From contig PHAM01000052.1 of NCBI GenBank assembly GCA_002841685.1, forward strand, positions 1 through 12,926: a stretch of 12,926 nucleotides of DNA, in the 5' to 3' direction. The position numbers and the translations under genes are program-made. This document shows positions 427 through 11,312 of this stretch, piece after piece. This DNA is from Elusimicrobia bacterium HGW-Elusimicrobia-2 (GTDB lineage: Bacteria; CG03). Below the pieces are notes generated by a model. The model saw only the letters and a list, made by a program, of their open reading frames with translations. It did not search any database and was not told the DNA's origin. Position 1 is the stretch's first letter. The number at the start of each line of letters is the position of its first letter.

Positions 427-785
427 AAAAAAGAATTCTTGTGGTCGATGACGATTTCAGCGTCAGAGAGACACTCGCCGATATCCTGCGCAGCCGCGAT
501 TATGAGGTCGTGGAAGCCTCATCCGGCGCCGAGGCCGTGGTGAATGCCGCGGCCGGAAAATATGATTGCGTTATAATAGACCTGCGGTTGCCCGATACCA
601 CGGGGCTTGAAGTCATTGAAAAAATATCCGGCGATGTGCCGAAAAACAAAATAATAGTCATCACCGGTTACGCGTCTTCCGATATGCTGGCGAAAACTCT
701 TGAGGAGGCCGAGTTTTTTCTTTTGCTCAAGCCGGTTGACACGGAGCAGATGCTTCAAATGGTTACAAAAATTATCGCGCAATGA
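423..785 (+). CDS. Stand-alone response regulator receiver domain (CheY-like)
   Basis: A 120-residue single receiver domain with no DNA-binding or enzymatic output domain. Key positions are visible: the acidic pocket D9-D10-D11, the phosphoacceptor D53 in the motif IIDLRLPD, the switch residue T81 in VITGYAS, and K103 followed by P104. It should be phosphorylated by the kinase encoded just upstream, with which it shares an ATGA overlap. Its stop overlaps the next start in the same way (782-785). Because it lacks an output domain, it probably acts by binding a partner protein. The translationally coupled MotB/OmpA-like protein downstream is one candidate, but that is inference. There is no clear Shine-Dalgarno sequence, so translation probably relies on coupling. 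Confidence 0.94.
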   Translation: MKKRILVVDDDFSVRETLADILRSRDYEVVEASSGAEAVVNAAAGKYDCVIIDLRLPDTTGLEVIEKISGDVPKNKIIVITGYASSDMLAKTLEEAEFFLLLKPVDTEQMLQMVTKIIAQ

Positions 786-1579
786 ACGACGAATCCGCCT
801 GGATTGTTCCTTATGGAAATCTCATGACCATCCTTATGATATTTTTTCTGCTGCTCTACGCTTACACATATCTGACGGGCCAGGTGCGCTATGAAAAAGT
901 CGTCGCCTCACTCACCGAGGGTTTCGGCCGTTCCGCTCCGATAAAGGAGGTGGAGCTGGCGGAATATCTTGAGGATTATTTTTCCACAAGAGAAGAATAT
1001 CTCAAAAACATGAACATGGCTTCGGACAGGATAACGCTGATGTTCAATCTTCCCGTTTTTTTTGAGAAAGACAGCATAGAGATCAAAGAATCGGCTTTAG
1101 CCGTATTAGATGACATATTCAGGATAATGTATGATCTGCCCAATGAGATAGTGATCTCCGGTTTCGCCGCCCCGGATTCCCGCAGGGATAAGATGCCGGT
1201 CGCGGCCGGGCGGGCGCTCAACATCGGACAGTTTTTTATAAAAAAAGGCATTGACCCCCAGCGGCTTATACTGAAGGGGTGGGGCGCGGCCCTGGGAGGC
1301 GCTGCTCCTTCCGGGTCGGAAGCGCTGGAAGACAGGGTCGAGATCAGCATAATGAGGGAGGTGTCGCCGCCAGATATACCCGTCAGCGAGAAGCTGATAA
1401 AGATGAAAGAGAATTATTTTTACGGTGATTATTATTATAAAAATGGCGACTTGAAAAAAGCCGAAATTTTCTTCGGCTATATCCTGGATCTTGACCCGAG
1501 CCATTGGAAGGCCCGCCGCATGATAAAAAGGATACAGAGAGAAAGGGCACTGTCTAAAAGCCCCGTAACAGCCGGATAA
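782..1579 (+). CDS. MotB/OmpA-like envelope protein with C-terminal TPR-like tail
   Basis: A 265-residue protein. A short N-terminus leads into one transmembrane helix (about residues 7-30) that aligns with the MotB plug/TM motif W-x3-Y-x-D-x-M-T, here W7...Y11-G12-N13-L14-M15-T16. The Asp that binds the proton in MotB is therefore Asn13. Residues 83-192 form an OmpA C-terminal-like peptidoglycan-binding domain (starting ITLMFNLPVFF, ending DRVEISI). It keeps the Arg of the AxRAL helix (R144), but the usual GHTD/GYTD turn is GFAAPD. Residues 208-245 look like one TPR-type helical pair (NGDLKKAEIFFGYILDLDP). It is probably anchored in the inner membrane with the OmpA-like part in the periplasm. 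No MotA/ExbB-like partner lies in the window. It is translationally coupled to the receiver gene, and its last 26 bases overlap the convergent glycosyltransferase gene. A true stator role is doubtful given Asn13. Confidence 0.85.
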   Translation: MNDESAWIVPYGNLMTILMIFFLLLYAYTYLTGQVRYEKVVASLTEGFGRSAPIKEVELAEYLEDYFSTREEYLKNMNMASDRITLMFNLPVFFEKDSIEIKESALAVLDDIFRIMYDLPNEIVISGFAAPDSRRDKMPVAAGRALNIGQFFIKKGIDPQRLILKGWGAALGGAAPSGSEALEDRVEISIMREVSPPDIPVSEKLIKMKENYFYGDYYYKNGDLKKAEIFFGYILDLDPSHWKARRMIKRIQRERALSKSPVTAG

Positions 1580-2992: not shown

Positions 2993-5900
2993 CAGAAAAT
3001 TATTTCAAGTTTTGTGCTGATCTGAACAGCCATATAATTGTTCTCGCGGCGTTTTGTGTAATCGGCATAGGAGAGCCCGCCCCCCAGACTCCAGCGGAAA
3101 TTGGAAGACATGTCGAAGTCCATGGAAAAATTACTCGCGTAGAGCTGATAATTTGTGCTTGTGACATTCAGGCTGCTGCGTTTCATCGTGCCGGAAAAAT
3201 CAATATTGTATCTGACATTCTGGTCTATCTCAATTTTTTTTGAACTGAAAGGCATCTGAAGGCTCTTTCTCATTTTCATGGTGTCCGAATGGAGTTTCGC
3301 GTTCACGGCGTGCGAACGGTCGTCCTTGGACATAACTCCTCCGGCGGAATGGCCGACATTATTGGCTCCGGTGTAAGTGAAGTTGGAATGCCATTTTTGC
3401 CACAGGTCAAAATTAACGCTGGCGTTCCATGATTTGTCCGTGCTTTGAGCGGACACGGCGTTCTGCTGGATGTCCTTGTTTTCCGTCTCACTTATTTTGA
3501 ATCCGGTGCCGATGGTGAATTTCTGCCATTTAAAATTGAGCGTCAGCCCCTGTCTGGCTGTCGCGGCGAGAGAAAGATTTTTCTGCTCGGTTTCGGAATT
3601 GTATATTTCTATGAGTGTGTTCATCGCGGAAAAATTTTTCCCGAAGATCGGTATTTTTTCAAGTGAGGATATCCTTATGCGCGCGTCGGGAAATGTGAGA
3701 GTGAAAGATTCGGACGGAGTGCCGGTCAGCTCCGTCCGCGCGAGATTGGATGTGTAATTCAGCTGTATGTCGGTGGTGCCGATCGGTGTCCAGGCGCCGG
3801 CAAGATCCAGGAAAGCAAAAGGTTTGTATGATGTGGACAGCGTATCGGACCGGGAAGTGGAGTAGGAATAAAGTTCGGCCTCGGGATTGTTCCGGTCAAA
3901 GGTCAGTCCGGTGTAAACGAAGCCGCTGTCGCGGAGAAAAAGTTTGTTCAGCGTGTTGAAATCCTTGTCCACATTTTTGTAAACGTCCGCGTCCGTTACC
4001 TTCAGATTGTAGTTGAAAGTGAGGCTGTTGGTGGGGCCGAAATTTATCAGGCTCCCCATGCTGAGAGGTATGCCGAATCCGGCGGAACTTGTTCTGTTGA
4101 TGTCTTTCAGCGTGAGGCCGATGCTTTTCCATGCGTCGGTGCTCGCGGGCATGGCATAGTTTTCGGTAACGGCCGCACTGTAATTGAAGCTGGTGTTGAG
4201 CCATTTGAAGGGCCTGAGGTTTCCGCTCACGCCGGCGGCGACATTCTGGCTGTTGAGAAGGCGCGCCATGCTGTCTTCTCCGATCTTTTTCCCGGAAGTG
4301 TTTCTCGTCAGTTTGTAGTTGCCGTTAAAATTGAGCAGTTTCAGGGGGTAGAACTGCGCGTCGCCGTAAAAGGTTTCGGTCTCGTTTTCCGTGTCCACAT
4401 TGCTGATCTGTCTGTTGTATTCCACAGCCGACACCGAACGGGAATAGTCAGCCGTGATGTTTTTCGGGAGTATGATGAGATTGGGCAGGGTGTAGGTCAT
4501 ACGCCCGTGAACGGTTTCGGCGGTGTCCGTTTTCCCGGCCAAAGTGTTTGATGTGACGGAGTGGCTGTAATCGCCTGAAAACTGAGGCAGGAGCTTTATG
4601 TTCAGGGCGCCTTTCACGGAATAAAGATTTTTTTCGATCCGGCCTTCATCCCATGTGCTGAGATACTGCGCCATGGGCGCGTCGGAGAGGTTGACTTTCT
4701 CCCGCGGAGTGGTGACGACGGATCTTTCAATATGTCCGGAAAGGGGCATCCACCTGATGCGGTTGAGGCTGAGGTCGCCGGTTTTGAACTCCTGGTCGCT
4801 GGAACTTTCAAAGGTCATGCTCTTGAAATTGGAATCTATTTCCTTGTGTGTGCCTCCGATGGTAAACCAGCCGGGGAGCTCCACGGAACCCTGCGCTTTT
4901 TTCGCGCTGCCTGTTTCTTTCCTGACGCCGTCCACATAAAAATCATTGATCCACAATTCATAATTCCCGGTCGAACCGTCGTCGCTCCTGACGCCGGCGA
5001 ATATCCTGGTGATGTTGTTTATGTTAACGCTGCCTGTCCGGGTCTGGAAGCCGTCGGGGATGGAATCGTAGTCCGCGTCCAGGAGGGACAGGCTGAAATG
5101 CTTCCATCCCGTAAAATCATCGGTAAAGGAATGCTCATAATAATTTGTTATGTCATTGCCTATCCTGATAAAAGCGCTGTTCCCGGAATTTTCCCCGTAA
5201 ACGAAAAAGTTCAGGTTTTTGTATATGGACAGGTCCATGCGGGAATAAGACGCGTAGGTATAAGCAGTGGCGTTGGGCGAAAGGCTGTAATTTATCCGCA
5301 GGGCCTGTTCCCGTATCTCAACATCGCTGTTGTCATAAAGATCGTTGTAATAAGGGGTGTAAAGGAGCGATTTTCCGGCGTATTCAGGATCTGTTTCGTT
5401 GTTTATCGCGGATACGTCAAAATCATCCCCGTCGGCGTCTATGTCTATTTCTATGCCGTTGCGAATAAGCGTGGGCTTTTGCCATCTGTTGCCCACGAGG
5501 CCGACCCCTGCTATTTTTATCTCACCCGCTGAGGCGCCTCCCGTCGCCATGCCGAGCGTCAAGGATATCTGTTTCACCGACCGCCACGCGTCTTTGTTGG
5601 TCGCGGTAATGGGCAGTTCGTATCTGAATTTCTGCCATCCCGACCACGAGACTGTCACGGCGGTTGAATAAATGATGTTTTCATCTGTTGACAGCTCGCC
5701 GTCGCCGTCAAGGTCCTCCGTGTTAAGCCGGCCGTTGTCTTTTCCCCAGACAAACCATGTGTTGGCGCTTCCGGGGAGATTGAATTTAACTCCGGTGTCC
5801 TCGCCGTCGTTCAAAAAGTGATCGCTGTTCGGGTCTTCGTTGTCAAGGACGCCGTCGGCATCGGCGTCCTCGTTAAAACGGCCGAGTTCTATTGTGACGG

Positions 5901-8133
5901 TTTCGTTTTTCCCGCTGCCCCATATATATCCCTCTATATATTTTTTCAGGCTGTAATCCGCTCCCTCGCTTGATATGGCATACACGAGCGCTGTCTGGCC
6001 CCCGGCGGGCATGAGCGAATAATTCAGGGCGAGAGCGCTGGTTTCATCTTCGCTGCTGTAATAAACGGGATTGAGTTCCCGCATGTTTATACCGTCGATC
6101 TCACTCCACACGAGCATTCCGCGTTTGTAGGGATCCTGTATGGCGGCGGGTTTCCATTGTTCCTCATAGGTGGAAACGGTATCTTCCTGTTTAATGTTCT
6201 CCATGTTCTCAACGATAGCTTTTCCGGCTTTGTTCGGGTCGTTTTCACTCCTTGCCGCCTCCCCTGAAATATTCACCCTGAAAGGAAAATGTCTTTTCGG
6301 GTTCAATGACAGCTTAGTGTTCACGTCAAACAGGAGCGTGGAGGGAGATGTCTGGTAGATACTGGGGATATCTCCCGCCGACGGGGCGAAATTATACAGT
6401 ATTGTGCCCCCGGCGAAAAAATTAGCGCTGGGTTTGTATTCGATCCTTGTCCCCGCGAGGGTTTGTTCCTGTCCGCCGACAAAGGGATAATATTCATAGG
6501 ATGCTTCAATAGACGAATCGTCTTTTATATCTTCTGTGTTGAGGAAGGTGATCCATCCCGAGTAGTAATCCAGCATATAGTCCCTGTCTTTGTCCAGAAT
6601 TTTCCCGTCCATGGAGATCCTTTCGGAATCTTTGACGATACTGGGCCGCAGAAGGTAGGTGTTGAGCTTCACGCGGTATTCCGCGTAAACGGCGAAATGA
6701 AGCCTCTCGCCGTGACGGGAAGGGTCGTAGATGTCGCTGTAGTCGTAGCCCAGTTGCGCGCCGATGTCCTCAAAAGGCCTCTCCCGTGAGAATTCTATTA
6801 TCCCGAGGTCATAATCCACGGTGAAAGACGCGGATGAAAAATCCACATAACGGACACCGCCCGCGGCGGTCTCGCTGTTGGAATTATCCAGTATTTTTAT
6901 GACGAATTTTTCGCCGAGCGAGTCGCGTATGATGTTGGTCGCTCCGAGGGAATAGCGGTTCTTTATCTCATAATGATCTTCAGCGGGAGAGGAGCGGCCG
7001 GCACGCGCGGCGTCATCTTTTATAACGACGTTGTAGAGGCCGCCGTTGGGGTCCGAAAACTTGTTGCCGTCGGTGTCAGTCCAGTCGCAGGCGATAACGG
7101 CGTCTTTTGATACGGATTTATAGAATGTGACAATACCGCGTGAATGGTCCACAATGTAATCTATGCCGGGTTTGAGGAGGTCAAAATTCCCCGTGAAGGT
7201 CTGCGTGGACCACATGACCGTCATGGGCTGTGTTATCCCGACGAGGTTGTTTTCTCCTATCCTGTCATCCAGCCAGATCTTTACGGAGCCTCTGGTCAGC
7301 GGCAGAGAGGCCGTTGAATTATAGATCTCGTAGTATTTTCGGCTCATATAAGAGGCGTCATTGATTATGGGTTTTCTGAATTCCGTGGATCCGGTGAAGC
7401 GTTTTATCTCGTTCAGCCCTTTCGTCTGGGATCCGACAAAATAAAGCGATAAACTTTTGTATTTCGCCGAACCCATAAAACCGAACAGGTTTTTGTCCAG
7501 GCCGGCTTTTCCCGAATAGCCGACGAATTCCGTCCCTGGCAGTGACAGGGTGATGTCTCCGAATTCCACCTTCTGGACGATCTCATTGGGGTCGCCGGTA
7601 TATTTGATCTGGATGTTACGTCTGTTGAGGTCGCCCTGGTTGTCGTCGTAGTTTATATCCACGTTTATTTTTCGTCCGACTTTTCCTTTGATCTTGATCT
7701 GCAGCTGCTGGTCCATGCTCATGTCAAAGCCGTCAGTTCCGCCGGCGCTGACGGTTCTTTTGGATGCGTCCTTTTCCTTATAAAACGCTTTTCCGAATTT
7801 CATTGAGATGGATTTTCGGCCGGCCACGTCGAGTTCTCCGCCGCTTTCCGCCGGCAGGTCTATATCAAATGACGCTTTGGGGAGGATGGCCCCTGTGGGT
7901 TCTGCCGCCTTGCTTTTTCCCGGAGCCGTTTCTTCAGCTATTTTTTCAAAGCTTTTTTCCTCAAAGTCGAAGACCTCTTTCTGATGCCTTATTTCCTGCC
8001 AGAGATCATGATCAAAAGGCAGTTCCTCGGCGCGGGCGGTATTAATGGGGAGTGTCAGGCACAGCGCTGCTGCGCAGACGAGCGGCGAAAATTTCAAAAC
8101 ATGCCTGTTCATAGAATTACATTTTTGCTCCAT
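2992..8133 (-). CDS. SprA/Sov-like giant outer-membrane beta-barrel protein
   Basis: A 1713-residue exported protein. An N-terminal signal peptide is visible (basic n-region around R10-K14, hydrophobic core about 15-30, likely cleavage after ARA at 35). Residues 145-203 hold KIKGKVGRKINVDINYDD..., ...NIQIKYTGDPNEIVQKVEFGD... and LSLPGTEFVGY, which match my memory of the SprA N-terminal domain, the type IX secretion translocon of Bacteroidetes. The middle has two acidic Ca-binding-like segments (about 752-767 and 805-817, EDLDGDGELSTDE) and two jelly-roll-like segments (about 850-910 and 990-1085). From about 1150 on, alternating polar/aromatic strands suggest a barrel, and the protein ends in Phe (AVQISTKLEIIF), like an outer-membrane beta-signal. 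SprA/Sov are about 2400-2500 residues, so this is a shorter relative. ATG 8133 is favoured by the promoter; an internal ATG at 8112 is the alternative start. The gene is followed by comF. Confidence 0.82.
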   Translation of the reverse strand: MEQKCNSMNRHVLKFSPLVCAAALCLTLPINTARAEELPFDHDLWQEIRHQKEVFDFEEKSFEKIAEETAPGKSKAAEPTGAILPKASFDIDLPAESGGELDVAGRKSISMKFGKAFYKEKDASKRTVSAGGTDGFDMSMDQQLQIKIKGKVGRKINVDINYDDNQGDLNRRNIQIKYTGDPNEIVQKVEFGDITLSLPGTEFVGYSGKAGLDKNLFGFMGSAKYKSLSLYFVGSQTKGLNEIKRFTGSTEFRKPIINDASYMSRKYYEIYNSTASLPLTRGSVKIWLDDRIGENNLVGITQPMTVMWSTQTFTGNFDLLKPGIDYIVDHSRGIVTFYKSVSKDAVIACDWTDTDGNKFSDPNGGLYNVVIKDDAARAGRSSPAEDHYEIKNRYSLGATNIIRDSLGEKFVIKILDNSNSETAAGGVRYVDFSSASFTVDYDLGIIEFSRERPFEDIGAQLGYDYSDIYDPSRHGERLHFAVYAEYRVKLNTYLLRPSIVKDSERISMDGKILDKDRDYMLDYYSGWITFLNTEDIKDDSSIEASYEYYPFVGGQEQTLAGTRIEYKPSANFFAGGTILYNFAPSAGDIPSIYQTSPSTLLFDVNTKLSLNPKRHFPFRVNISGEAARSENDPNKAGKAIVENMENIKQEDTVSTYEEQWKPAAIQDPYKRGMLVWSEIDGINMRELNPVYYSSEDETSALALNYSLMPAGGQTALVYAISSEGADYSLKKYIEGYIWGSGKNETVTIELGRFNEDADADGVLDNEDPNSDHFLNDGEDTGVKFNLPGSANTWFVWGKDNGRLNTEDLDGDGELSTDENIIYSTAVTVSWSGWQKFRYELPITATNKDAWRSVKQISLTLGMATGGASAGEIKIAGVGLVGNRWQKPTLIRNGIEIDIDADGDDFDVSAINNETDPEYAGKSLLYTPYYNDLYDNSDVEIREQALRINYSLSPNATAYTYASYSRMDLSIYKNLNFFVYGENSGNSAFIRIGNDITNYYEHSFTDDFTGWKHFSLSLLDADYDSIPDGFQTRTGSVNINNITRIFAGVRSDDGSTGNYELWINDFYVDGVRKETGSAKKAQGSVELPGWFTIGGTHKEIDSNFKSMTFESSSDQEFKTGDLSLNRIRWMPLSGHIERSVVTTPREKVNLSDAPMAQYLSTWDEGRIEKNLYSVKGALNIKLLPQFSGDYSHSVTSNTLAGKTDTAETVHGRMTYTLPNLIILPKNITADYSRSVSAVEYNRQISNVDTENETETFYGDAQFYPLKLLNFNGNYKLTRNTSGKKIGEDSMARLLNSQNVAAGVSGNLRPFKWLNTSFNYSAAVTENYAMPASTDAWKSIGLTLKDINRTSSAGFGIPLSMGSLINFGPTNSLTFNYNLKVTDADVYKNVDKDFNTLNKLFLRDSGFVYTGLTFDRNNPEAELYSYSTSRSDTLSTSYKPFAFLDLAGAWTPIGTTDIQLNYTSNLARTELTGTPSESFTLTFPDARIRISSLEKIPIFGKNFSAMNTLIEIYNSETEQKNLSLAATARQGLTLNFKWQKFTIGTGFKISETENKDIQQNAVSAQSTDKSWNASVNFDLWQKWHSNFTYTGANNVGHSAGGVMSKDDRSHAVNAKLHSDTMKMRKSLQMPFSSKKIEIDQNVRYNIDFSGTMKRSSLNVTSTNYQLYASNFSMDFDMSSNFRWSLGGGLSYADYTKRRENNYMAVQISTKLEIIF

Positions 8134-8253: not shown

Positions 8254-8283
8254 TTGACAAAGACAGCTTCATAAAGATACAAT
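8254..8283 (+). promoter_or_regulatory. Promoter of the pilin operon
   Basis: TTGACA (8254-8259), a perfect -35, and TACAAT (8278-8283) are separated by 18 bases. The -10 ends eight bases before the GTG start at 8292, so the mRNA should begin at or within a few bases of that codon. No Shine-Dalgarno sequence is present for the first gene. Confidence 0.8.
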
Positions 8284-8291
8284 TCAAAAGT

Positions 8292-8501
8292 GTGAAAGCT
8301 ATTAAGACAAGCGAAAGCGCGGGATTTTTGTCCGCGGCGTGCGGACCCGGCGGTTGGCTGGTTTCGGAAGACGGCCAGGGCGGGAGCGAATATATATTGA
8401 TGGTTTTCTGTTTATCGGTGGTTATTTTTGGTTTGAAAATTTTTAATCTGGTTTTGAACAAGGCCTATTTGGATGCCGTGAATAACATAAGCAAATGGTG
8501 A
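8292..8501 (+). CDS. Flp-like pilin 1 (first gene of pilin operon)
   Basis: A 69-residue prepilin-like protein starting with GTG. It has a 28-residue leader ending in SEDG28, then the mature N-terminus QGGSEY with Glu at +5 and Tyr at +6, the signature recognised by TadV/FppA-type prepilin peptidases, and then a hydrophobic helix (ILMVFCLSVVIFGLKIF). The mature part would be 41 residues, the shortest of the six. It has GG at +2/+3 where the others have GM or AM, so it may be a minor or tip subunit; that is inference. The GTG start is chosen because the promoter ends just before it and no ATG precedes the leader. The gene overlaps the next one by 7 bases. Confidence 0.82.
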   Translation: MKAIKTSESAGFLSAACGPGGWLVSEDGQGGSEYILMVFCLSVVIFGLKIFNLVLNKAYLDAVNNISKW

Positions 8502-8683
8502 GATCCGGCGGAAAATCTTTTCTCGGGCGCGAAGACGGCCAGGCGATGACCGAATACATCCTGATGATGTTTCTCATCGTTCTTTCCGCCGCGCAGGCGC
8601 TGAAGGCATTTGGTTTGTGTTTGGATATCGCGCTTATACAGTCGGCGAGAAAGCTCGGCGGCTTCGGAGGCACCATAAAATGA
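8495..8683 (+). CDS. Flp-like pilin 2
   Basis: A 62-residue prepilin-like protein. Its leader of 15 residues ends in REDG15, followed by QAMTEY (Glu +5, Tyr +6) and the helix ILMMFLIVLSAAQALKAF. The predicted mature subunit is 47 residues, and its C-terminal tail has several glycines (LGGFGGTIK). The start ATG at 8495 lies inside the end of the previous gene; a GTG at 8498, overlapping that gene's stop as GTGA, is an alternative that removes only one residue. The stop overlaps the next gene's ATG (ATGA, 8680-8683), so translation is coupled on both sides. The shared EDGQ segment relates it most closely to pilin 1. Confidence 0.85.
   Translation: MVRSGGKSFLGREDGQAMTEYILMMFLIVLSAAQALKAFGLCLDIALIQSARKLGGFGGTIK
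8666..8670 (+). promoter_or_regulatory. Shine-Dalgarno site setting the start of pilin 3
   Basis: GGAGG lies nine bases before the ATG at 8680. It favours that ATG over an upstream in-frame ATG at 8617, which would put 21 extra arginine-rich residues before the leader and run deep inside pilin 2. Confidence 0.65.
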
Positions 8684-8862
8684 GGAAACCGGATTTTGTT
8701 TGGAATTTTAAAAGCGCCAGAGGGGCGGGTATGACGGAATATATTCTTATCGTGTTTTTAATAGCGCTTCTCGCTTATGTTGCCGTGCAGGAATATGGCA
8801 AAGTGGTATCCGGCAGATTTATAGGCGCCGGGAATAAAGTGGAAGCCGCGTGGGGCGATTGA
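8680..8862 (+). CDS. Flp-like pilin 3
   Basis: A 60-residue prepilin-like protein. Its 15-residue leader ends in KSARG15, followed by AGMTEY (Glu +5, Tyr +6) and the helix ILIVFLIALLAYVAV. Alone among the nine products of this cluster it has Ala rather than Gln at +1. The mature subunit would be 45 residues and its sequence is close to pilins 4 and 5, indicating tandem duplication. The ATG at 8680 overlaps the stop of pilin 2 (ATGA) and has a GGAGG nine bases upstream. A 70-base gap follows, holding a separate promoter for pilin 4. Confidence 0.88.
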   Translation: MRKPDFVWNFKSARGAGMTEYILIVFLIALLAYVAVQEYGKVVSGRFIGAGNKVEAAWGD

Positions 8863-8876
8863 AAGATTGCAAAATG

Positions 8877-8905
8877 TTGAAAGGGTATCCGGCATTCAAT
8901 AAAAA
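8877..8905 (+). promoter_or_regulatory. Internal promoter before pilin 4
   Basis: TTGAAA (8877-8882) and TAAAAA (8900-8905) are separated by 17 bases in the only sizeable gap of the pilin operon. A transcript from here would have a 5' leader of about 20 bases containing the AGGAGG at 8922-8927. The -10 is imperfect, so this is a moderate call. Confidence 0.5.
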
Positions 8906-8921
8906 TAATGCGCGGATATAC

Positions 8922-8927
8922 AGGAGG
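8922..8927 (+). promoter_or_regulatory. Strong Shine-Dalgarno site of pilin 4
   Basis: AGGAGG lies five bases before the ATG at 8933. It is the best ribosome-binding site of the six pilin genes and suggests that pilin 4 is the most highly translated subunit. Confidence 0.8.
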
Positions 8928-8932
8928 TTGTT

Positions 8933-9094
8933 ATGAATTTTTTGAGAGATGAAAGAGGGCAGGGCATGACAGAGTACATTCTTTTGGTTTTCCTTATCGC
9001 CCTTCTGGCCTACGCGATGGTTCAGGTATTCGGCAACACCGTAAAGAATGCGTTTAATACAGGCGCATCAAAACTTAGAAACGCCGCGAGATAA
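8933..9094 (+). CDS. Flp-like pilin 4, probable major pilin
   Basis: A 53-residue prepilin-like protein with the shortest leader of the set (MNFLRDERG, 9 residues), then QGMTEY (Glu +5, Tyr +6), the helix ILLVFLIALLAYAMV and a short amphipathic tail ending NAAR. The mature subunit would be 44 residues. It is the most canonical Flp-type pilin here. It also has its own likely promoter (8877-8905) and a full AGGAGG Shine-Dalgarno sequence, which no other gene in the operon has. I therefore infer that it is the major filament subunit. It is easily missed in automated annotation because of its length. Confidence 0.9.
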   Translation: MNFLRDERGQGMTEYILLVFLIALLAYAMVQVFGNTVKNAFNTGASKLRNAAR

Positions 9095-9105
9095 AAGAGC
9101 AATCA

Positions 9106-9333
9106 ATGTCTGTCCTTTGCGAAGCTGAAGGGCGGAGTGTATCGGGCGGGTGTTCCGGGGGCCGTTTTTTGCGCGCATTGGGAAAAGATGAGTGCGGTCA
9201 GGGCATGACCGAATATATCCTGCTCATTTTTCTTGTCGCGCTCGCCTGTATATTCGGCATTAGAATGTACGGCGGCAAAATAAAAAAGGGTTACACCAAA
9301 GGCGCCGAGACTTTGGGGAACATAGCCAGGTAA
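9106..9333 (+). CDS. Flp-like pilin 5
   Basis: A 75-residue prepilin-like protein. The mature part QGMTEY... (Glu +5, Tyr +6) with helix ILLIFLVALACIFGI is 44 residues and closely resembles pilin 4, including a tail ending NIAR. The leader from the ATG at 9106 is unusually long (31 residues) and rich in Gly and Cys. A TTG at 9169, with a G-rich stretch just upstream, would give an 11-residue start-to-Gly leader more like that of pilin 4. I keep the ATG but regard the start as open. It lies 11 bases after pilin 4 and 11 bases before pilin 6. Confidence 0.82.
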   Translation: MSVLCEAEGRSVSGGCSGGRFLRALGKDECGQGMTEYILLIFLVALACIFGIRMYGGKIKKGYTKGAETLGNIAR

Positions 9334-9344
9334 GGCGGCGCAGT

Positions 9345-9539
9345 ATGGAAAAGCCGCTCACCGCTTGTTCCGGACGCCTCCGGTTTTGTTCCGGCCAGGC
9401 GATGGCTGAATATGTTATCGCGCTTTTTCTCTGCGCGATGTTTGCCGTCGGCACTTTCAAAACTTATCAACACGCTATGCGTGTACATTACAACCGCGTC
9501 GCCAAAGCCCGCACGGGTTCCACAGGTATGAGACCGTGA
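9345..9539 (+). CDS. Flp-like pilin 6
   Basis: A 64-residue prepilin-like protein. The leader ends in FCSG17, followed by QAMAEY (Glu +5, Tyr +6) and a helix (VIALFLCAMFAVGTF) that differs from those of pilins 3-5. The mature subunit is 47 residues with a basic tail (HYNRVAKAR). Having Ala at +4 (QAMAE) makes its N-terminus resemble the last TadE-like protein of the operon (QAMAEM), so it may be intermediate between the pilins and the pseudopilins. The stop overlaps the GTG start of the next gene (GTGA, 9536-9539). Confidence 0.83.
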   Translation: MEKPLTACSGRLRFCSGQAMAEYVIALFLCAMFAVGTFKTYQHAMRVHYNRVAKARTGSTGMRP

Positions 9540-9988
9540 AAAGCAAAAAAGGGCCCCGCAAAGCGGGACAGTCCCTCGTCGAGGTGGTGATGGTGTTTCC
9601 CATACTTGTAACGCTGCTGTTCGGAATAATGCAGCTGGCCATGATAGCCGAAACGATGTTTGTCCTTAACGACGCCGCTAATTCCGCCGCGCGCGCGGCT
9701 TCCGTCGGCAGGTCCGCGAATCTCGCCGCCGCCTATGTCGTGCAGAAAACCATCGGCCTGACCAGTTACGGTTATTTCGGGGGCGTGTCAACGAACAACA
9801 GCACAGTGAATTCACGCCGTCCGGTGGGAATTCCCGGCACTATAGGCAGCTCCAGCCAAAGAAGAATTAAAATAGTGGAATGCACCGTGAGATATTTTTT
9901 CAAACCCATGTTCATGAAAACGGCTGTTATACCGCTGTCCGCCTCGGCGCGGGCCATGGTGCATGAGCTTCCGGAGGGCGTTGAATGA
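9536..9988 (+). CDS. TadE-like pseudopilin
   Basis: A 150-residue protein starting with GTG. It has an 11-residue leader ending KAG11, then QSLVEVVMVFPILVTLLFGIMQ, the classic TadE N-terminus with Glu at +5 and Pro in the helix. A segment follows (LNDAANSAARAASVGR) that matches the conserved N-A-A-x2-A-A-R-A-A pattern after the TadE membrane helix. The remainder is a periplasmic beta-rich domain. TadE-type pseudopilins are processed by the prepilin peptidase and are needed for Flp pilus assembly. The GTG is coupled to the stop of pilin 6; the gene overlaps the next by ATGA (9985-9988). Confidence 0.9.
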   Translation: MKSKKGPRKAGQSLVEVVMVFPILVTLLFGIMQLAMIAETMFVLNDAANSAARAASVGRSANLAAAYVVQKTIGLTSYGYFGGVSTNNSTVNSRRPVGIPGTIGSSSQRRIKIVECTVRYFFKPMFMKTAVIPLSASARAMVHELPEGVE

Positions 9989-10845
9989 AAAAAGAAAGCG
10001 GACAGGCCATCGTCCTCACGGCGCTGACGATGCTGGTGATGTGCCTTTTTACATTCATGGTCATAAACACGGGGGTCGTTATTTACCGCAGGATACAGAT
10101 GCAGAACGCCGCCGATTGCGCGGCTCTGAGCTCCACGAGAATTCTGGCCCGTTCGCTGAATGTGGTTGCAAACATAAATAACGTCATAGGCATAGAGCAG
10201 GTTCCCTGCGTCGGAGGTTTTTTGCCGATGCTATTTGGTACACTCTCGCCTATGATGATGAAGAATATGAAAAGCGCTTATGAGTCGCTCCGCTCGATTG
10301 AAACAGCCTGGGTGAGAGCGGGCGCCGGACAGGCGGCGGCGGTGGGCTATCAGGTGGCGAAACTGAACGGCGCCAAGGCGGGAATACCGACGGGTTCGTT
10401 TTCGCTCAAGCTTAAAGGCAGGAAAATAAAAGTCTTATTTTGGAAATGCATTAAAATACCGACTCCTTCCGGAACGATAGAGGTGCCGATACCCATGGGT
10501 ATGAAAACATACAATCCCGCTTATTACAGACGCGCGTGGGCGACGGATGAGCAGAAGGCCCAGCCGACGCATAAAATAAAATGGCGCGTGTATAAGGACG
10601 CTTATCAGCCCTTCGCCGGTTCTCTCTTCGGCAGTTTGTCGGCGGCAAAACCGACATGGGCTTCCGCTCAGGCGAAGCTTTTTTATGACTGCAGAAAAAA
10701 CTATGCGCTTCATTACGGCGGTTTCCCCCGCTCACGGAACGCTTCGCTGGAAGAAAAGATGTTTATTCCGCAACCCTTATCGTTGGCGAATCCAGCTCAG
10801 TTTAACGCTTACCTTGTACCTTACGGCGTGAGCTATCTGCACTGA
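9985..10845 (+). CDS. TadG-like pilus-assembly protein (Tad N-terminal domain)
   Basis: A 286-residue protein. Leader MKKESG6 is followed by QAIVLTALTMLVMCLFTFMVINTGVV and then YRRIQMQNAADCAALSSTR. This order (GQ, hydrophobic helix, NxG, RxxxQNAADxAAL) is the mark of the TadE/G-like N-terminal family. Unlike its neighbours it has Leu at +5 instead of Glu, as is usual for TadG-like proteins. The large C-terminal part is lysine- and proline-containing, with no domain that I recognise; typical TadG proteins have a von Willebrand factor A domain, and I see no MIDAS motif (DxSxS) here. It is preceded by GGAGG seven bases before its ATG. The stop shares one base with the next ATG (TGATG). Confidence 0.85.
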   Translation: MKKESGQAIVLTALTMLVMCLFTFMVINTGVVIYRRIQMQNAADCAALSSTRILARSLNVVANINNVIGIEQVPCVGGFLPMLFGTLSPMMMKNMKSAYESLRSIETAWVRAGAGQAAAVGYQVAKLNGAKAGIPTGSFSLKLKGRKIKVLFWKCIKIPTPSGTIEVPIPMGMKTYNPAYYRRAWATDEQKAQPTHKIKWRVYKDAYQPFAGSLFGSLSAAKPTWASAQAKLFYDCRKNYALHYGGFPRSRNASLEEKMFIPQPLSLANPAQFNAYLVPYGVSYLH

Positions 10846-11312
10846 TGAAAAAGAATTTGAAATCACCTCGTTCGGGCCAGGCGATGGCGGAGATGGTGAT
10901 ATGCCTTATTGTCCTGCCTCTTTTCATAATGGCCATCGTCCGTTTCGGCCAGACTCTGATAATCCAGCAGCGGCTTCTTATGGCGGCAAAACACGGCGTG
11001 ATACTCAGGTCAACCAATCTGGTGGCTGACACTTATGTAACGAGTGAGGTGAGACGGTTCCTCGCTGAAGGCACGCCAAAACTGGAAAGCGGAAAGATAA
11101 CAATATCTCTGGCGAAAACGAGCTATTTCGGAAACCCCATATCCCATGTCACCGTGGGTTATAGGATAAGGGTCCCGGTATTTGGCGGAAGCAGTGGGGG
11201 AAATTTTTTTCAGCCGTTTCGAAGCGAGGAAATAACATTAAGAGAAGAAGCATACTGCGCTGATTTCAGGCGTTTACCGGGAAAGCTTTATTCTCTGCCG
11301 CCTGATATTTAA
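10845..11312 (+). CDS. TadE-like pseudopilin, second copy
   Basis: A 155-residue protein. Leader MKKNLKSPRSG11 is followed by QAMAEMVICLIVLPLFIMAIVRFGQ, with Glu at +5 and a proline in the helix as in TadE. The next segment (IIQQRLLMAAKHGVIL) matches the post-helix pattern of the family. The C-terminal domain has short beta-type segments. It is translationally coupled to the TadG-like gene. Its stop codon TAA (11310-11312) overlaps the TAA of the opposite-strand gene through the palindrome TTAA, so there is no intergenic space and no intrinsic terminator at the end of this operon. Confidence 0.85.
   Translation: MKKNLKSPRSGQAMAEMVICLIVLPLFIMAIVRFGQTLIIQQRLLMAAKHGVILRSTNLVADTYVTSEVRRFLAEGTPKLESGKITISLAKTSYFGNPISHVTVGYRIRVPVFGGSSGGNFFQPFRSEEITLREEAYCADFRRLPGKLYSLPPDI

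Follow-up and report, generated by a model that had tools for sequence, protein, structure and literature searches.

The flp array

Six consecutive small genes on the forward strand of an Elusimicrobia contig (positions 8292-9539) encode a fixed, position-specific set of Flp-type prepilins with invariant mature lengths. One product, Flp4, is probably the major pilin of a Tad pilus in which the other five would be low-abundance Flps. The window analysed here, a stretch of 12,926 nucleotides, is the entire contig C93 of a 1.78 Mb genome (94 contigs, 96% complete) and carries the pilin-encoding half of a Tad (type IVc) pilus locus. Named relatives are assemblies from metagenomes, catalogued under Elusimicrobia or as unclassified bacteria, and the phylum set comprises 16 genomes.

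Each of the six open reading frames carries a Gly|(Gln/Ala)-x3-Glu-Tyr site. From flp1 to flp6, the leaders span 28, 15, 15, 9, 31 and 17 residues and the mature chains 41, 47, 45, 44, 44 and 47 residues, reproducing exactly the sites and lengths given for these tandem genes in the preliminary description. The mature chain of Flp1 (8292..8501) begins with QGGSEYIL, and its orthologs in five other genomes are all 41 residues long when mature. Flp2 (8495..8683) ends in GGTIK, and Flp3 (8680..8862) has Ala at +1. These are followed by flp4 (8933..9094), flp5 (9106..9333) and flp6 (9345..9539), the last being the most divergent member and ending in MRP. The genes are closely packed, with flp1 overlapping flp2 by 7 nt and flp2 overlapping flp3 by 4 nt, as in most of the genomes, and the 3′ end of flp6 overlaps a tadE-like gene in the window. 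All the elements of Flp anatomy are present: a hydrophilic leader ending in G/A, Glu at +5, Tyr at +6, about 20 hydrophobic residues and a mature chain of roughly 40-50 residues. The six also share the N-terminal core MTEYIL-FLIAL.

Outside the array, the pattern G[QASG]xxxEY has a single match in the six frames of the window, and it occurs once in 117 kb of strand from other contigs of the same lineage. About 0.01 matches would be expected per 1.25 kb, against the six observed, and the rarity of the motif in both settings rules out a chance run. Two start codons are ambiguous from the window alone: flp1 may begin at GTG 8292 or TTG 8328, and flp5 at ATG 9106 or at TTG 9169 or 9178. In G002 an ATG stands opposite the GTG of flp1, and G003 retains the ATG of flp5; the relatives thus favour the long start of both genes.

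Conservation and origin of the six pilins

A profile of the six pilins detects the array in five further genomes: three belong to the same genus, and two to other genera of the family. Every array-bearing genome holds exactly six copies, the array of G003 being split across two contigs. In every complete ortholog the same six mature lengths recur by position, which is a stronger argument for the predicted cleavage sites than the preliminary description had offered. The leaders behave differently from the mature parts. Ortholog leaders range from 4 to 31 residues (from 4 to about 25 at position 6 alone) and are 21-40% identical at five of the six positions, against 71-94% for the mature parts.

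Paralogs within a genome are about 31% identical; orthologs are far closer, at 73-94%, and form their own clade at each position. All six positions are monophyletic, with support of 0.96-1.0, except for 0.78 at position 5, and dN/dS of the mature parts is 0.03-0.09 at all six, indicating purifying selection. The flp4 of G003 is cut by a contig end and was left out of the ortholog and tree set, giving rise to five "non-positional" best matches; the partial gene is present at L054:1-132 and is 98% identical to flp4. Because of this positional monophyly, the low paralog identity and the low dN/dS, the six must have separated before these genomes diverged from their ancestor and have been retained since: they are old, distinct and conserved subunits. 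The preliminary description had spoken of six distinct pilins, and the positional orthologs kept across the family bear this out. That relatives retain the six in an unchanged order suggests a surface fibre built from several specialised parts instead of copies of one. In tblastn at 1e-4, flp6 retrieves none of the other flp genes; its ties to the other five are confined to motif, length, position and the array's own profile.

Among the 16 genomes, the other families of the phylum carry single flp genes only, in G007 and G013, where the gene immediately precedes cpaB and tadZA. In G003 and G005, a one-flp locus exists as a second system. Within this set of 16 genomes, to which the comparison is limited, the distribution suggests that the array grew from a single flp. 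A search of plasmids with Flp4 returned single weak Flp matches (<60% identity) at no more than two places in any record, and no array of this kind. In G006, a 95% complete genome of the same family, no flp is detectable anywhere, and cpaB-tadZA-tadB is present (L113, G006:C45); either the array falls in an assembly gap or the Tad core does not need it.

Relationship to known Flp pilins

Three of the six match the Pfam Flp_Fap profile (PF04964): Flp4 (E 2.4e-5, 24.5 bits), Flp3 (E 0.0087) and Flp5 (E 0.059). None reaches the gathering cut-off of 32.2 bits, a strict threshold passed by one of six matching control genomes. Flp1, Flp2 and Flp6 receive no family assignment from Pfam or NCBIfam. 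The profile check proposed in the preliminary description thus gives matches for Flp3 to Flp5, all below the cut-off, and none for the other three. Against PDB sequences, the array profile retrieves two solved Tad pilins at E 1e-6: 8u2b ("Flp family type IVb pilin") and 8u1k (PilA). Each has 45 residues and so equals the mature chains of the array in size. The entry 8u1k is cited as a PilA filament structure (PMC12607857).

The surrounding Tad locus

Three genes follow flp6 in near-overlap. A tadE-like minor pilin gene (9536..9988, forward strand; Pfam TadE, E 6.4e-10) is the one that overlaps flp6. Next comes a TadG-like minor pilin gene (9985..10845, forward; Pfam Tad, E 6.7e-7), whose product has no Glu at +5 and is conserved in four relatives; its AlphaFold model has a pLDDT of 34 and was left out of use. 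A second TadE-like minor pilin gene (10845..11312, forward; Pfam TadE, E 2.8e-4) falls just under the cut-off in hmmscan and scores 23.8 bits, over the cut-off, in the genome search.

The assembly machinery is encoded on another contig of the same genome, C71, which carries cpaB, a TadZ-TadA fusion, tadB, tadC, a Cache-HAMP-PAS protein, a PorV-family/TPR protein, a TPR protein and tadV. The assignments include CpaB/RcpC (TIGR03177, E 2e-43, above cut-off), the TadA-type ATPase (TIGR03819, E 2e-100), the platform proteins TadB and TadC (T2SSF twice) and TadV (Peptidase_A24, 182 aa). In the 718-residue fusion (L015:963-3116), a MinD/ParA-like domain is N-terminal to TadA; the fusion is matched in 9 of the 16 phylum genomes, mostly over near-full length. 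Farther along C71 lies a candidate RcpA/CpaC, a short secretin of 287 residues in which the CpaC N-domains are not seen. It is 32-44% identical to the secretins beside tadZA in G013 and G010.

In G002 and G004 a single contig carries the array, then the tadE/G genes, a convergent membrane gene and cpaB-tadZA-tadB-tadC; in G004, tadV is also on the array contig. From this synteny, C93 and C71 are very probably neighbours. The preliminary description had taken the six products for Flp-type pilins of a Tad system and proposed a look for tad genes elsewhere in the genome. The cpaB, tadZ-tadA, tadB, tadC, tadV and secretin genes are all there, so that its refuting case of a genome devoid of tad assembly genes does not arise, and in relatives cpaB-tadZA-tadB-tadC are contiguous downstream of the array.

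Promoter and translation signals

Upstream of flp1 is a strong sigma-70-like promoter, TTGACA-18-TACAAT (8254..8283, forward strand), with 11 of 12 matches; its TTGACA element is recognisable in five of the six genomes. The promoter puts the predicted transcript start at about the first codon of flp1, whose message may therefore be leaderless. An identical promoter-to-flp1 layout (window positions 8254-8292) is seen in G002 and G004. The best Shine-Dalgarno sequence among the six belongs to flp4 (AGGAGG, 8922..8927, forward strand), held in a spacer of 50-70 nt that precedes the gene, and AGGAGG or AAGGAGG is found there in all five readable genomes. That of flp3, GGAGG, is also good and sits within the coding end of flp2.

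Proposed division of labour among the pilins

Flp4 is the candidate major pilin because it combines the best Shine-Dalgarno sequence, the highest identity between genomes, the lowest pN and the best Flp_Fap score. It is the most conserved member, at 91-98% between genomes (mean identity 94%), and is predicted to fold as one long helix (pLDDT 82). Shine-Dalgarno strength and conservation speak to abundance only indirectly, however; flp3 has a good GGAGG as well, and the high identity of Flp4 could also reflect other constraints. In the proposed mechanism, a TadV-type prepilin peptidase would cleave the six prepilins after Gly (or Ala), and the mature helices of 41-47 residues would be assembled into one fibre by TadA, TadB and TadC via a CpaB/secretin channel. 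Flp4 would most likely build the shaft, and Flp1, Flp2, Flp3, Flp5 and Flp6 would most likely initiate the fibre or link the shaft to a TadE/TadG/TadE2 tip.

Several or all of the six could instead co-polymerise substantially into a mixed or ordered multi-subunit filament. All six keep Glu at +5 and a mature length like that of Tad pilins, all are under strong purifying selection, and their overlapping genes form a single tightly packed cluster. However, the paralogs share just about 31% identity, have C-terminal halves that end differently and are unlike in charge, and carry unequal translation signals; such a shaft seems unlikely.

The six might also be alternative pilins, expressed in different conditions or swapped to alter the properties of the fibre, a use that has been suggested for the six flp genes of 'Candidatus Liberibacter asiaticus'. 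Expression of the flp genes in that bacterium does differ between psyllid and citrus (PMC8312247), and flp4 has a spacer and a Shine-Dalgarno sequence of its own. Against this, flp1, flp2 and flp3 overlap or lie end to end and, in the window, flp6 overlaps tadE, an arrangement that suggests co-expression; order and sequence are moreover stable family-wide, showing none of the turnover that antigenic or conditional variants would be expected to undergo. This use of the array is judged quite improbable.

A further extension, in which the pilus needs six non-interchangeable Flps in a defined order and the gene order mirrors the order from tip to shaft, is highly doubtful; if true, it would depart from the design of known Tad pili, which have a single major pilin. 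Recent tandem duplication yielding redundant copies with no functional division would suit the tandem arrangement and the common N-terminal core, but it has a negligible probability and is ruled out by positional monophyly across genomes, the positional clades having arisen before at least three genera diverged and every copy being conserved with its exact length.

Comparison with other Tad systems

The usual model of a Tad pilus has a single Flp together with TadE/F/G. With the Tad/Flp loci of Caulobacter (cpa/pilA) and Aggregatibacter (flp-tad), the present system shares short Flp prepilins with G/A-x4-E sites, TadA, TadB, TadC, CpaB, TadV, a candidate RcpA/CpaC secretin and TadE/TadG minor pilins. 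It differs from them in having six Flps rather than one or two, in the fusion of TadZ to TadA, in the short and displaced secretin, and in the sensor gene and PorV/TPR genes within the locus.

Six consecutive flp genes have already been reported in 'Ca. Liberibacter asiaticus' (PMC8312247), and the rarity implied by the preliminary description was overstated. That array is alphaproteobacterial and reportedly differentially expressed, and is likened to the present one by gene count. In the Myxococcus Kil pilus, KilK and KilO are low-expressed Flp minor pilins that act as tip adapters (PMC12075869). Both systems have more than one Flp-size pilin for one Tad-type pilus, together with larger tip pilins. 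In Kil, however, the Flps come from separate gene clusters and there are two adapters, whereas here five extra Flps lie in one array. By analogy, a KilK/KilO-like adapter role is probably the best model for Flp1, Flp2, Flp3, Flp5 and Flp6, and the array supports extending the adapter idea beyond Myxococcus.

Tad systems have been noted previously in Elusimicrobia (PMC6668835). What is new is a fixed, position-specific six-pilin set whose mature lengths do not vary, shown in a distant lineage; it is a well-supported variant of a known system. A conserved, differentiated set in a non-proteobacterial lineage shows that pilins of Flp size can be partitioned stably, and it provides an ordered natural set for asking what residues a shaft subunit needs and what residues a tip adapter needs.

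Other genes of the window

On the reverse strand, positions 2995-8133 encode a SprA/Sov-like protein of 1713 residues (TIGR04189, E 8.5e-44; its 149 bits fall short of the cut-off of 200). The gene adjoins the flp array divergently in G000, G002, G003 and G004. The type A sorting tail of the type IX secretion system has 14 matches in the genome, 10 of them marked over the cut-off. Together with the SprA/Sov-like protein and the PorV-family protein of C71, these matches suggest a type IX secretion system in the lineage. At 782-1576 (forward strand), a gene that follows those for a response regulator and a histidine-kinase ATPase domain encodes a protein with MotB_plug, OmpA and TPR domains, possibly an envelope-anchored signalling or motor part.
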